Of a stretch of 64,000 bases of DNA, positions 17,276 through 22,137 are shown in pieces. Positions within the stretch are counted from its first letter, which is position 1. The number at the start of each line of letters is the position of its first letter. The notes below the pieces were generated by a model. That model was not told the DNA's origin. It saw only the letters and a list, made by a program, of their open reading frames with translations, and did no database searches. The DNA lies in NCBI RefSeq assembly GCF_008831545.1, contig NZ_CP044523.1, positions 1,550,001 to 1,614,000 on the forward strand. The letters are read 5' to 3'. Source of the DNA: Halorussus halophilus (GTDB lineage: Archaea > Halobacteriota > Halobacteria > Halobacteriales > Haladaptataceae). The position numbers and the translations under genes are program-made.

Positions 17276-17719
17276 TCACGGTCTGTGACGCCGATGCTTT
17301 CGCTCGCGTCCACGCTGTCCGTATCGTCGTTCGGAGTATCCCTGCTGGCGGTCGGACTGTCCTTGCTGTTGGGTTTGCGCTCGCTGGTGAGCCTGCGGTT
17401 CTGACTGCACGGGTGCGACGTATCGACCGGTCTTCGAGTTTCGCGGTTGCTGACCGCCTCGTTGGCTTCCCGCGAGGAACCGTCCAGTCTTCGGGTCTCG
17501 ACGTCGTTGGCTGGCCGCTCGGGACTGTCGTCCGCCCCCCTCGTACCGTTCTGGCTCCCGTCGTTTGGTTTCCTCTCTCTCGGAAACCTCCTCGCGATGT
17601 TCCCCGCGCTGTGCGACGAATCGCCCGGTCTTCGGGTCGCGGCGTTGTTGCTGTGCCTGCGCTCGTCGGATTTCGGTTCGTCGGCGCTCGTCTCGTTGAC
17701 TTCCGTATCTCTCGCTCAT
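17276..17719 (-). CDS. Highly basic, Arg/Gln-rich protein with KTGR(F/Y) repeats
   Basis: 147-residue protein that is extremely basic (Arg, Lys, His, Gln), against the acidic rule of halophile proteomes. Three repeats stand out: RRDPKTGRFVAQ (about residues 26-37), RRDPKTGRFLAG (about 73-84) and PRNSKTGRYVAP (about 91-102). The repeat codons differ at third positions while the amino acids stay the same, which argues that the frame is translated. The rest looks disordered (SERYGQRGRERKHRRHRP at the end). No family recognised; binding to nucleic acid is the natural guess. It lies 168 bp downstream of ndk on the same strand and converges with aglJ. Confidence 0.6.
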   Translation of the reverse strand: MSERYGSQRDERRRTEIRRAQAQQQRRDPKTGRFVAQRGEHREEVSEREETKRREPERYEGGGRQSRAASQRRRDPKTGRFLAGSQRGGQQPRNSKTGRYVAPVQSEPQAHQRAQTQQQGQSDRQQGYSERRYGQRGRERKHRRHRP

Positions 17720-17887: not shown

Positions 17888-18352
17888 TTACTCGTAGAGC
17901 CACGTCTCGTCGATGCGGGCGTAATCGACGAGTTCCGCTTCGTCGAAGAAGAGGTCGATTTCGCGCTCGTTGGCGCCCTCGTCTTCGTGGTCGGAACCGT
18001 GGATGACGTTGCGACCGAGGTCGAGTCCGAAGTCACCGCGGATGGTGCCCGGAGCGGACTCGGCCGGGTCGGTCTCGCCCATCATGGTGCGAACCTGTCG
18101 GGTCGCGTCCTGGCCTTCCCAGACCATCGCGAAGACGGGACCGGACGTGATGAAGTCCACGAGACCCTCGAAGAACGGCTTGCCTTCGTGCTCGCCGTAG
18201 TGTTCGTGGGCCAGTTCTTGGTCGATCTGCATGAACTTCCCGGCGACCATCTTCAGACCGCGGTCCTCGAAGCGGGAGACGATCTCGCCGATGAGGCCGC
18301 GCTGGACGCCGTCGGGCTTGACCATGACGAAGGTTCGTTCTTCGTCGCTCAT
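17888..18352 (-). CDS. ndk: Nucleoside-diphosphate kinase
   Basis: 154-residue enzyme exchanging the gamma phosphate between NTPs and NDPs. [20 protein letters not shown] is the family N-terminus and [22 protein letters not shown] contains the nucleotide-binding residues. [31 protein letters not shown] contains the phospho-accepting His (VIHGSD). Its ATG overlaps the rpl24e stop by 4 bp, so it is the fourth gene of the rpl7ae-rps28e-rpl24e-ndk operon, a gene order conserved in haloarchaea, where infB normally follows. Here infB is not next. Confidence 0.96.
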
Positions 18353-18537
18353 TGCTCACCCTCTGCTTGGCCGTCCTCGGTCCATTCGAGGTCGCGCGGT
18401 TCGCGGCCGAGGTCGGCGTTCTTCTCGCACTTCGCAGAGCAGTAGTGGATAGTCGTTCCGTCGGTGCGGACGAACATCGTTCCCGTGCCGGGTTCGATGT
18501 CGTCGCCGCAGTAGTCACACTCTCGCGTCTGAGGCAT
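18349..18537 (-). CDS. rpl24e: 50S ribosomal protein L24e
   Basis: 62-residue zinc-binding ribosomal protein. [20 protein letters not shown] and [20 protein letters not shown] provide two CxxC pairs that hold one zinc, as in other archaeal L24e. It sits 2 bp after rps28e and overlaps ndk by 4 bp, both consistent with one polycistronic message led by rpl7ae. Confidence 0.95.
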
Positions 18538-18539
18538 GG

Positions 18540-18767
18540 TTACTGTCCTCCGATGGAGTCGGCTTCGCGGGCGGTTTCGCGCAGTTGCAGCACGTCGCCC
18601 TCGCGGACGGGACCGAGACAGTTGCGCGTGATGATGCGCCCCTGATTCTCGCCCTCACGGATGCGGCACTTGACCTGCATGGCCTCGCCGTGCATCCCCG
18701 TCTTGCCGACGATTTCGATAACTTCGGCGGGCGTGGAGCCTTCCTCTTCAGTCTCTTCTGCGCTCAT
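18540..18767 (-). CDS. rps28e: 30S ribosomal protein S28e
   Basis: 75-residue S1-like OB-fold ribosomal protein. [24 protein letters not shown] and [27 protein letters not shown] are diagnostic of archaeal S28e. An acidic extension of about 12 residues ([11 protein letters not shown]) is typical of halophiles. It is 7 bp downstream of rpl7ae and 2 bp upstream of rpl24e. Confidence 0.95.
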
Positions 18768-18774
18768 GGTTTAC

Positions 18775-19137
18775 TTACCGAAGGTCCTCGACCTTCTGGG
18801 CAATGTCTTCGACGTCGTCCTCCGCCTCACCGGAATCGACGATGGCGGCAGCCGCGCTGCCGACTTCGAGACCGGCGGCGTGACCGACGTCGTCCTGCGT
18901 CTCGACGAAGACGAAGGGGATTCCCTTCTCGTCGGCGAGTTCGGGCAGGTGCATGACGATCTCTTCCGGCGTGACGTCTTCGGCGACGTACACGAGGTCG
19001 GCGTTACCGCGCTCGATTGCCTTGGTCGTCTCGTTCGTTCCTTTCTTTACGCTACCTGTGTCTCGGGCGACCTCCAGCGCCTCGATGGCGCTGTCTTGGA
19101 GGTCGGCTGGGACGTCGAAGTTTACGTATACTGGCAT
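18775..19137 (-). CDS. rpl7ae: 50S ribosomal protein L7Ae, kink-turn RNA-binding protein
   Basis: 120-residue archaeal L7Ae. The RNA-binding signature is visible as [29 protein letters not shown], and the end [24 protein letters not shown] is haloarchaea-like. The protein binds kink-turns in 23S rRNA, box C/D and H/ACA guide RNAs and RNase P RNA. It is the first gene of the rpl7ae-rps28e-rpl24e-ndk operon. Unusually for this window it has a long leader with a perfect GGAGGTGA Shine-Dalgarno seven bases before the ATG, preceded by a hairpin with box C/D-like kink-turn elements, which suggests that it controls its own translation. Confidence 0.96.
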
Positions 19138-19144
19138 TGGTTGT

Positions 19145-19222
19145 TCACCTCCTACGCGTCGGCTCAGGCTCCCCTGCCGGATGAGTCCTGTGCGGCTAGG
19201 AGCATCATCAACCGCGCGTAGG
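19145..19222 (-). promoter_or_regulatory. Candidate kink-turn leader with embedded Shine-Dalgarno of rpl7ae
   Basis: Read on the minus strand, CCTACGCG (19222-19215) pairs perfectly with CGCGTAGG (19158-19151), forming an outer 8-bp stem. Inside it are TTGATGA (19211-19205), close to box C, and CTGA (19167-19164), identical to box D. They flank an inner stem GCTCC/GGAGC (19203-19199 with 19172-19168), topped by GCCG/CGGC. The last two G of the outer stem are also the first two of the Shine-Dalgarno GGAGGTGA (19152-19145). L7Ae binding to this fold should therefore hide the ribosome site. One extra nucleotide beside box D makes it slightly irregular. Confidence 0.65.
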
Positions 19223-19248
19223 TTGTACGCATCAGTTGTTCTTGACCC

Positions 19249-19257
19249 CTTAAAAAC
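19249..19257 (-). promoter_or_regulatory. TATA box of the rpl7ae-ndk operon
   Basis: On the minus strand the sequence is GTTTTTAAG. Placing the start site about 25 nt downstream puts it near 19225-19230, giving a leader of about 90 nt that just includes the whole predicted kink-turn hairpin. Confidence 0.65.
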
Positions 19258-19836: not shown

Positions 19837-22137
19837 ATGCCGCTCCCCGACGTAGCAACCGAACTCCACACTGAATCCCAAGCCGTCGGCGAGCGTCGCC
19901 TGCTCGTCCTCACGGGGACCCAAGACGCCTGCTACGAGGCTGCCGAAACCGCGCTCGACGCCGCCGAAATCCCCCGAAAGGAGACGACCCTCCTCGCCAG
20001 AGAACGCCACCTCGACTGTGAACGCGTCGGTCCCAAAAAAGCCAAAGAACTACTCGGAACCACCCAGCAGTGCATAGTCCTCGACCTGCACGACGATTTC
20101 CGACCCAACGCCATCGGGCGAACCGTCGGCGCAGTCGATGGCGGTGGCTTGTACGTCCTGCTGATGCCCAACTTCGGGGAGTTCGCCGACCAGCGAACCG
20201 ACTTCGATAGCTCGCTGGCCGTGCCGCCCGCGGACATCGACGCCGTGTCGGGGAACTTCCGTCGGCGTTTCTGCGAGACCCTACAAATGCATCGCGGCGT
20301 CGCCATCTGGAACACCGACACCGAGACACTCGAACAGTCGGGACTCACCCACCCGAAGCCTCGCTTCCCCACTGAACCGCCCGAACTTCCCGACTCACAC
20401 ACCTTCCCCCGCGAAGCCTACGACGCTTGCCTCACCGGGGACCAGATAGCGGTCGTGCAGAAGTTCGAGGTTCTTCGAGGCGGTCCAGAGAAAAACGCCG
20501 TCGTCGTGGAGGCAGACCGCGGCCGCGGGAAGTCCAGTGCCGCAGGAATCGCCGCCGGAAGCCTCGCCGCAGAGGGCGAAGACGTACTCGTGACCGCCCC
20601 CGAGTACCGAAGCGCACGCGAGGTGTTCGTCCGGGCCGCAGACCTCCTCCGCAAACTCGGTCACGACATCTCGACGGACCACGACCCGCCGCGGGAGATT
20701 GCTACCGATTCAGGCAAAATCAGATTCGCCAAGCCCACTGAAGCCGCCGAACTCCCCGACGCCCCGGACGTCCTGTTCGTAGATGAAGCGGCCGCCCTCT
20801 CCGTCGGTTTGCTCGAACGATTCCTGGCGGCCGACCGCGTGGCGTTCACGACTACGGTCCACGGCTACGAGGGCGCGGGCCGTGGATTCTCCGTGCGGTT
20901 CCGCGACCGACTCGCGGAGAGCGACCACGAAGTGACCGAAACGCGACTCGACCAGCCGATTCGCTACGCGGCGGGCGACCCCGTCGAAGTCTGGGCGTTC
21001 CGCGCGCTCTTGCTCGATGCTCGACCGCCCGTCGAGCAGGTGGTTAGAGACGCGAATCCGGAGTCCGACTCTGTCGAGTACCGAACGCTCTCACCCGGCG
21101 ACTTGCTGGCCGACGAGAACTTGCTCCGGGAGGCGTTCGGCCTGCTCGTCCTCGCCCACTACCGCACCGAACCCGCGGACCTCGCGCGACTTCTCGACGC
21201 GCCGAATCTCTCGGTGCGCGCGCTCACTTTCGACGGTCACGTCGTCGGCGTCGCCCTGCTGGCCCGCGAAGGAAACCTCCCCGAAGACGTGCGCGAACAC
21301 ATGTACGACGGCGGGCGCGTGAAGGGCAACATGCTTCCGGACGTGCTGACGACCCAACTGCGCGACGAGTCGGCCGGAATTCCGAAAGGAATGCGAGTCG
21401 TCCGAATCGCGGTCCACGACGCCGTTCGTTCTGCGGGACTCGGGTCACGCTTGCTCGCCGAGATTCGTGCGGAGTTCGAAGACGAACTCGATTGGCTCGG
21501 CGTCGGCTACGGTGCGACGCCCCAACTCCTGCGGTTCTGGCACCGAAACGGCTACCGCACCGTTCAACTCTCGACCACGCGCAACGACACCAGCGGCGAA
21601 CACTCTGCGCTCATGCTCGACCCGCTGAGCGGGGGCGGAAGGGCTCTCCACGACCGTCACGCCGACTGGTTCGCATCGCGAATCACGTCGATGCTCGGCG
21701 ACTCGCTCCGGGGGGTCGATGCTGACGTAGTGCGTGCGCTTTTGCCAACTATCGACGCCCGTATCGAACTCGACCTCTCGCCGTGGGACTGGCGCGCCGT
21801 CGCGGCCAGCGCCTACGGACCCGGACTCTACGACGCCGCGCCCCGACCGTTCCGCCGCGTCGCGCTGAAGTACTTCGTGGAGAAGAGCGAGGCGAACGCC
21901 GAGCGTTCGCCGGACGCCGTCGCGAGTCGCTCGCCGGCGAGCGACTCGCTCACACTACAGCACGAGCGAGTACTCGTTCGGAAAGTCCTGCAAGGCCACG
22001 ACTGGAAGACGGTCGCGGACGAACTCGGGTTTCATTCCACTGGCCAGTGCATGCGCGCGCTCGGCGACGCCTACGAACCGCTAGTCGATGCCTACGGCGA
22101 CGAGGCAGCGATGGCGGAGAAAGAGCGTTACGAGTGA
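19837..22137 (+). CDS. tmcA: tRNA(Met) cytidine acetyltransferase TmcA
   Basis: 766-residue enzyme that forms N4-acetylcytidine using acetyl-CoA and ATP, on elongator tRNA-Met in bacteria and more broadly in archaea. The N-terminal domain (about 1-190) is followed by a RecA/helicase-like module with Walker A EADRGRGKSSAAG (Lys232) and DEAA-box VLFVDEAAALSV. A GNAT acetyltransferase domain then contains MRVVRIAVHDAVRSAGLGSRLL and GATPQLLRFWHRNGYR, and a C-terminal tRNA-binding tail ends the protein. The start ATG follows a CATAAAC element by about 30 nt. Near residues 685-705 the coding DNA carries two perfect hairpin sequences (see separate entry). It converges with the next gene with one base between the stops. 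Confidence 0.93.
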   Translation: MPLPDVATELHTESQAVGERRLLVLTGTQDACYEAAETALDAAEIPRKETTLLARERHLDCERVGPKKAKELLGTTQQCIVLDLHDDFRPNAIGRTVGAVDGGGLYVLLMPNFGEFADQRTDFDSSLAVPPADIDAVSGNFRRRFCETLQMHRGVAIWNTDTETLEQSGLTHPKPRFPTEPPELPDSHTFPREAYDACLTGDQIAVVQKFEVLRGGPEKNAVVVEADRGRGKSSAAGIAAGSLAAEGEDVLVTAPEYRSAREVFVRAADLLRKLGHDISTDHDPPREIATDSGKIRFAKPTEAAELPDAPDVLFVDEAAALSVGLLERFLAADRVAFTTTVHGYEGAGRGFSVRFRDRLAESDHEVTETRLDQPIRYAAGDPVEVWAFRALLLDARPPVEQVVRDANPESDSVEYRTLSPGDLLADENLLREAFGLLVLAHYRTEPADLARLLDAPNLSVRALTFDGHVVGVALLAREGNLPEDVREHMYDGGRVKGNMLPDVLTTQLRDESAGIPKGMRVVRIAVHDAVRSAGLGSRLLAEIRAEFEDELDWLGVGYGATPQLLRFWHRNGYRTVQLSTTRNDTSGEHSALMLDPLSGGGRALHDRHADWFASRITSMLGDSLRGVDADVVRALLPTIDARIELDLSPWDWRAVAASAYGPGLYDAAPRPFRRVALKYFVEKSEANAERSPDAVASRSPASDSLTLQHERVLVRKVLQGHDWKTVADELGFHSTGQCMRALGDAYEPLVDAYGDEAAMAEKERYE
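21891..21949 (+). repeat. Two consecutive perfect hairpins inside the tmcA coding sequence
   Basis: GGCGAAC (21891-21897) pairs with GTTCGCC (21905-21911). Directly after it, 21922-21949 is a 28-bp perfect palindrome, with arms of 14 bp beginning GCGAGTCGCTCGCC and no loop. They encode a low-complexity linker (ANAERSPDAVASRSPASDSL) between the body and the C-terminal helix-turn-helix-like tail of TmcA. Confidence 0.75.

Follow-up and report, generated by a model that had tools for sequence, protein, structure and literature searches.

A conserved kink-turn leader of the haloarchaeal l7ae operon and its probable role in autogenous control by L7Ae

The window analysed here is a 64,000-nt stretch of the Halorussus halophilus genome (contig NZ_CP044523.1, positions 1,550,001 to 1,614,000), and window positions are used throughout. 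Its minus strand carries the gene for ribosomal protein L7Ae (l7ae, eL8; 18775-19137, ATG start), whose product matches Pfam PF01248 above the cut-off and has haloarchaeal eL8/L7Ae chains as its closest solved structures. Three genes follow on the same strand: rps28e (18540-18767; PF01200), which begins 7 nt past the l7ae stop codon (junction TAAGTAAACCATG), rpl24e (18349-18537; PF01246), and ndk (17888-18352; PF00334), the start of which overlaps the rpl24e stop codon (ATGA). By tblastn, the order l7ae-rps28e-rpl24e-ndk was found in 107 of 108 loci, the one exception arising from the way a single locus had been oriented, so that the operon described by an earlier, sequence-only reading of this DNA is widely kept. 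Since the operon is retained and its junctions are short or overlapping, translational coupling is plausible, and the downstream genes could plausibly be controlled through it. Downstream of ndk lies a 147-aa ORF (17279-17719, minus strand) with three (D/S)(P/S)KTGR(F/Y)(V/L)A-like motifs in an arginine- and glutamine-rich context, for which no Pfam match was found. The divergent neighbour is the gene for the tRNA(Met) cytidine acetyltransferase TmcA (19837-22134, plus strand), some 0.6 kb past the promoter of l7ae.

Upstream of l7ae, the minus strand contains a candidate promoter, recognized by its sequence and by its spacing in relatives, which consists of a BRE (GAAAGCG, 19263-19257) and a TATA box (TTTTTAA, 19256-19250). 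Across 89 leaders, the distance from the start of a TATA-like hexamer to a conserved UAC is 26-29 nt, and 64 of them have exactly 28 nt. This conserved spacing predicts a transcription start at most a few bases from 19228; the structured element described below should therefore form the 5' end of the transcript. The sequence-only reading, which had drawn attention to the leader as a possible L7Ae-binding kink-turn (k-turn), depended on transcription starting upstream of 19205, and the TATA-box spacing indeed suggests such a start. The unpaired 5' UAC(A/G) (19227-19224) is itself near-invariant (U in 72, A in 73 and C in 72 of 73 distinct leaders); no pairing partner for it was found among these leaders, and it could act as an initiator element or contribute to what the RNA does.

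The whole structured leader, from the UAC to the ATG, occupies 19227-19135 of the minus strand, with its 5' base at 19227 and the l7ae ATG at 19137-19135, one base off the boundary used in the sequence-only reading. Counted from the predicted start, the 94-nt leader folds with -40 kcal/mol (z = -4.08; none of 200 shuffles as good), compared with z = -2.69 for the boundaries used previously. The 5' strand of the outer stem P1a (CCUACGCG, 19215-19222) pairs over 8 bp with CGCGUAGG (19158-19151). Past a single bulged A (19159), P1a continues as P1b, in which CGGU (19214-19211) pairs with GCCG (19163-19160), and together they make a 12-bp lower helix, P1. Above P1 lie the two k-turn strands, a box C-like UUGAUGA (Kt-b, 19211-19205) and a box D-like CUGA (Kt-n, 19167-19164), followed by the non-canonical helix P2 (GCUCC, 19203-19199, with GGAGC, 19172-19168) and by P3 (GCC, 19196-19194, with GGC, 19178-19176), which is extended here to GCCG (19196-19193) and CGGC (19179-19176). 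The apical region contains the motif CAGGA (19190-19186), whose form across the class is AGG(G)A. The outer stem, UUGAUGA, CUGA and the inner stems had all been placed correctly by the sequence-only reading, to which the continuation of the lower helix through P1b, the apical motif and the class-wide conservation documented below are the newer additions.

The Shine-Dalgarno sequence (SD) AGGAGGUGA (19153-19145) matches the anti-SD complement at nine exact bases. Its first three bases are the last three of the P1a 3' strand; two of them belong to the haloarchaeal SD consensus GGAGGUGA (PMC8241225), in agreement with the earlier statement that the SD begins inside the outer stem. The remark that strong SDs are uncommon in this window also held: in a rough survey that took in 41 coding-like ORFs at least 150 aa long, one ORF had an SD of at least six exact bases, compared with nine for l7ae.

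To evaluate the fold, leaders were drawn from 110 haloarchaeal loci. They resemble one another strikingly, and the differences among them preserve the pairing. An alignment of 29 diverse leaders made from sequence alone contained 28 cells with both-sided changes, against 7.3 in shuffles. For 73 distinct leaders the numbers were 79 against 16.6 (none of 500 shuffles as high; slid controls 10-22), with 96.2% of cells paired, although this alignment was fitted to a covariance model and its covariation therefore leans towards the structure. The fold and the covariation of the l7ae leader are not due to chance. All eight pairs of P1a vary in relatives, six of them with both-sided changes (56 cells against 13.4 shuffled), and all five pairs of P2 show both-sided changes. 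In P1b, the pair two below the k-turn is G-C in 73/73 leaders and the one next to the k-turn is U-G in 68/73; P3 is paired in 95.8% of cells and shows no both-sided changes among the 73 leaders. Identity of relatives to the window is 85-89% in the P2 and P3 strands and 67% at l7ae third codon positions, and it is 43% in the spacer between TATA box and start (the 17 nt before the UAC) and 31% farther upstream.

Between these helices, the k-turn nucleotides are nearly fixed. In the Kt-b strand, the G and A and the terminal UGA occur in all 73 distinct leaders, and UGAUGA occurs in 63. In the Kt-n strand the G is found in 70 and the A in 73 leaders, whereas the other two box D bases vary, so that CUGA as such is limited to about 14. 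A k-turn-like element is thus conserved in l7ae leaders just 5' of the SD, as had been proposed; the UUGAUGA half of the proposal is conserved, and on the opposite strand a GA dinucleotide takes the place of CUGA. The tandem G-A positions expected at 1b-1n and 2b-2n are present and their neighbours vary, with covarying helices on either side, consistent with the G-A/A-G core that is invariant in standard k-turns. In one lineage (L190), the whole of P2 is swapped for an unrelated, perfectly complementary 10-bp helix (GGAGCCACCG/CGGUGGCUCC), while both GAs and P1 are retained.

Most leaders nevertheless depart from the standard k-turn, which has a three-nucleotide bulge with C-G beside it. In these, four unpaired nucleotides separate the lower helix from the GA, and the adjoining pair is U-G. 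A three-nucleotide bulge was counted in 7 of 73 leaders, and the rest have four nucleotides (or a U bulge plus three). The standard bulge is seen in L026, L045, L065, L080, L184, L197 and L147, some of them with C-G below, and the lineages with three and four nucleotides offer a natural series for relating bulge length to L7Ae affinity. The U-G beside the bulge, together with U opposite C or U at 3b:3n, lies outside the combinations known to fold in ions alone, and by the published sequence rules kinking of the haloarchaeal leader is thus likely to depend on L7Ae.

The apical region is otherwise variable, and within it the GGA is near-invariant (its first G in 71 of 73 distinct leaders). In many genomes, lineage-specific hairpins are inserted directly after AGG(G)A. 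No covariation of AGG(G)A with P1, P2 or the SD was detected in the 73 leaders, and local alignment of the leader with its own 23S rRNA, as a search for rRNA mimicry, was no better than with shuffles (87 of 300 as good). AGG(G)A may make a tertiary contact, bind a second protein or touch the ribosome.

The covariance model matches 285 of 294 genomes of Halobacteria, in 74 of 78 genera and nearly always once. In the 4.45-Mb genome of H. halophilus the l7ae leader is the sole match at E ≤ 1 (E = 1.1e-30), and the match ends at the l7ae ATG, as it does in relatives. Beyond the order, about 300 genomes of the phylum gave a single match (G475), unrelated to l7ae. This match and weak second matches in G127 and G323 were taken as chance, since all are sited elsewhere than at l7ae and miss much of the element. 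Nine genomes of the class were unmatched, and seven of their leaders were inspected. Five are divergent and expanded (L172, L174, L177-L179) and two have a compact form (L180, L181); L191, also without a model match, has a compact leader. The three compact leaders come from early-branching halobacterial lineages. L189, from a low-GC lineage, was assigned to neither form. The compact form also occurs in most of the other Halobacteriota sampled (L199-L218). Compact leaders share the gene and a GAU/GA k-turn with the enlarged form, for instance GUAAUGA-CGCGC...GCGCG-GAAC followed by GAGGU, but have neither the P1a outer stem nor the apical AGG(G)A domain, and their k-turn directly adjoins the SD. 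Judged by lineage branching inferred from L7Ae identity rather than from a tree, the enlarged architecture appears to have been derived within Halobacteria, and the compact form is apparently ancestral.

Autogenous control through an l7ae leader has been reported before. In Sulfolobus, L7Ae bound the k-turn of its own leader and lowered expression (Daume et al. 2017, PMC5539422); in Archaeoglobus, the leader folded when it bound its ligand, and the ribosome binding site was covered (Huang et al. 2019, PMC6298567); and such control was proposed for archaea generally, including Haloferax volcanii (PMC5539422, PMC6298567). The interpretation offered here is therefore not new in kind, and that of the sequence-only reading, which had itself cited self-control of L7Ae through its mRNA as reported in archaea, proves largely right and largely already known. 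The haloarchaeal leader has in common with the published elements the gene, the protein family, a UGAUGA-type bulged strand, the tandem G-A and the adjoining SD, as well as the proposed outcome of translational repression. The differences are as follows: First, the published elements are short stem-loops with few pairs in the C-helix, the compact form of other Halobacteriota resembling those of Sulfolobus and Archaeoglobus, whereas the haloarchaeal leader has a 12-bp C-helix, predicted to be pre-formed, with the SD at its far end. Second, the A. fulgidus element is largely unfolded without L7Ae, in contrast to haloarchaeal leaders, for which P1 is predicted to be formed. Third, the NC-helix of the haloarchaeal leader has a conserved motif at its apex, together with hairpins that vary. 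Finally, Daume et al. describe highly conserved leaders in Sulfolobales only, while that of the haloarchaeal leader spans Halobacteria.

Few archaeal cis-regulatory RNAs have been confirmed or predicted (PMC7247131). The halobacterial leaders of S15 and eL15 described by Eckert and Weinberg (2020, PMC7247131) are likewise covariation-supported and presumed to be autogenous archaeal ribosomal protein leaders; no halobacterial l7ae leader is among the 20 new motifs of that paper, though the legend of its overview figure names an eL7 leader. Rfam gave no match, neither at the gathering score in a scan of the window nor at E ≤ 1 for the leader. In the literature searched, which took in few subscription journals, no description of the haloarchaeal architecture was found, and the enlarged form, with its 12-bp lower helix, invariant tandem GA, covarying upper stem, AGG(G)A and lineage-specific hairpins, seems to be undescribed. 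The l7ae leader would be an addition with strong covariation support, found in almost all genomes of a tractable class for which good genetic methods exist, and its compact and enlarged forms permit one regulation to be compared in two architectures.

We consider it likely that the l7ae leader is an autogenous ribosomal leader read by L7Ae through the k-turn. Free L7Ae, when more is made than its rRNA and sRNA sites can take up, would bind the k-turn that UUGAUGA and (N)GA form in the leader of its own message; translation of l7ae would be repressed, and rps28e, rpl24e and ndk would follow by coupling. Given the Sulfolobus and Archaeoglobus precedents (PMC5539422, PMC6298567), binding and repression of this kind very probably operate here, by a proposed mechanism that would differ in detail from that of the published compact form. 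Several observations argue for control by L7Ae: the helix-k-turn-helix covaries and sits at the predicted mRNA 5' end, with the SD always at P1; its GA positions stay invariant even where P2 is exchanged; and the model match is almost class-wide, single in its own genome and attached to a kept operon.

How repression would be achieved is constrained by the SD and by P1. The 85 leaders measured all have an SD that starts between -3 and +4 nt relative to the P1 end; it overlaps P1 by 1-3 nt in 48 leaders and lies 0-4 nt outside in 37. The overlap noted by the sequence-only reading is thus real in this genome and not general, and since it is not conserved, masking of the SD by base pairing cannot be the general mechanism. 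Folding predictions that use standard energy parameters rather than haloarchaeal salt give P1 a protein-free pairing probability above 0.8 in 99% of 89 leaders, which makes a fold-on-binding switch unlikely. The predicted pre-formed P1 agrees with control by L7Ae in the form favoured here, in which L7Ae would stabilize a steric block to the 30S subunit next to the SD. L7Ae would clamp and kink the pre-formed P1 rather than convert an unfolded RNA into a hairpin; P1 with its bound protein and the apical domain would block 30S access to the SD, and where the SD overlaps P1 the clamp would also keep the SD from melting free. More speculatively, and with considerable doubt, L7Ae may bend the constant 12-bp helix so that the AGG(G)A domain is brought back to the SD end, where AGG(G)A or a second partner blocks the 30S subunit, an arrangement that would have arisen once in Halobacteria from the compact form. 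If true, such a kink-driven, pre-folded regulator would embody a principle distinct from the fold-on-binding switch of Archaeoglobus.

Three points speak against autoregulation by L7Ae. The pre-formed P1 could hamper translation even without L7Ae, and most leaders, with four unpaired nucleotides and U-G, are not textbook k-turns. Furthermore, the published repression in H. volcanii was obtained with about 50 bp of upstream sequence (PMC5539422). In two Haloferax leaders (L047, L056), UUGAUGA ends 99-101 nt before the ATG, so that by these layouts the construct cannot contain UUGAUGA and should hold only the 3' half of the element; a figure legend in PMC5539422 places an H. volcanii Kt-b strand farther upstream than the one in the construct. 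Going by the Haloferax layouts, the construct would lack the conserved 5' k-turn strand, which bears on the published test.

L7Ae need not be the only ligand. L7Ae might occupy the k-turn while another protein, or the 30S subunit, recognizes AGG(G)A; we regard this as possible but rather unlikely. The GGA is near-invariant and without a covarying partner, as expected of a contact and not of a helix. On the other side, the motif is not known to have a partner, and it could be an intramolecular contact or a requirement of the hairpin fold.

Autogenous control by L7Ae would be dispensable if the leader were a constitutive 5' hairpin that makes the mRNA more stable or tunes basal translation, with the k-turn present and no regulation by L7Ae. 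This agrees with the predicted stability of P1 without protein, and many haloarchaeal genes function without an SD or leader (PMC8303175, PMC8241225). A plain stem, however, needs neither invariant non-Watson-Crick GAs, nor a bulge on one strand, nor a covarying helix beyond them, and the element is restricted, in its own genome, to the gene of a k-turn-binding protein. We consider this reading improbable.

A switch between two states, with an alternative pairing that exposes or hides the SD, is suggested by the complementarity of the P2 CUCC to the SD and of the apical AGGA to the P2 UCCU. The three alternative helices, however, show 2, 3 and 0 both-sided changes against 4.1, 4.0 and 0.5 in shuffles, and where the CUCC changes it is the P2 partner that changes with it (L090, L190), which makes such a switch very improbable.

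The archaeal L7Ae superfamily includes several k-turn binders, and on this general ground the ligand could be another of them, such as L30e. The first regulated gene is l7ae in every genome checked, and in Sulfolobus and Archaeoglobus the protein that binds the l7ae leader is L7Ae itself (PMC5539422, PMC6298567), leaving an L30e-type ligand hardly credible. An equally slight chance attaches to the leader being the source of a box C/D guide sRNA or of a small upstream peptide. With box C/D sRNAs it shares the UGAUGA and (C)UGA strands, which make a k-turn of the kind read by L7Ae, and the AUG within UGAUGA opens a short ORF in this genome; but, unlike such sRNAs, which combine RUGAUGA and CUGA with internal C'/D' boxes and a guide, it is embedded in an mRNA leader, has one k-turn between long stems and no guide region, and its box D is not conserved as CUGA (about 14 of 73 leaders). 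The upstream ORF was rejected as a candidate: across 89 leaders neither its length nor its frame is conserved (36, 31 and 22 leaders in the three frames), and 28 leaders have no stop codon before l7ae.

An annotated protein gene does cover part of the element in one Natrinema record, which might be read in favour of a peptide. This record, from Natrinema thermotolerans, holds the l7ae locus that was the only match in a search of plasmid and phage records. At CP031304.1 401666-401869 (1410-1613 of locus L225), the leader RNA lies under the CDS DVR14_22140 ('hypothetical protein'), which is probably a false gene call over the leader element. The replicon, labelled a plasmid, is 987 kb long and holds the entire l7ae operon.
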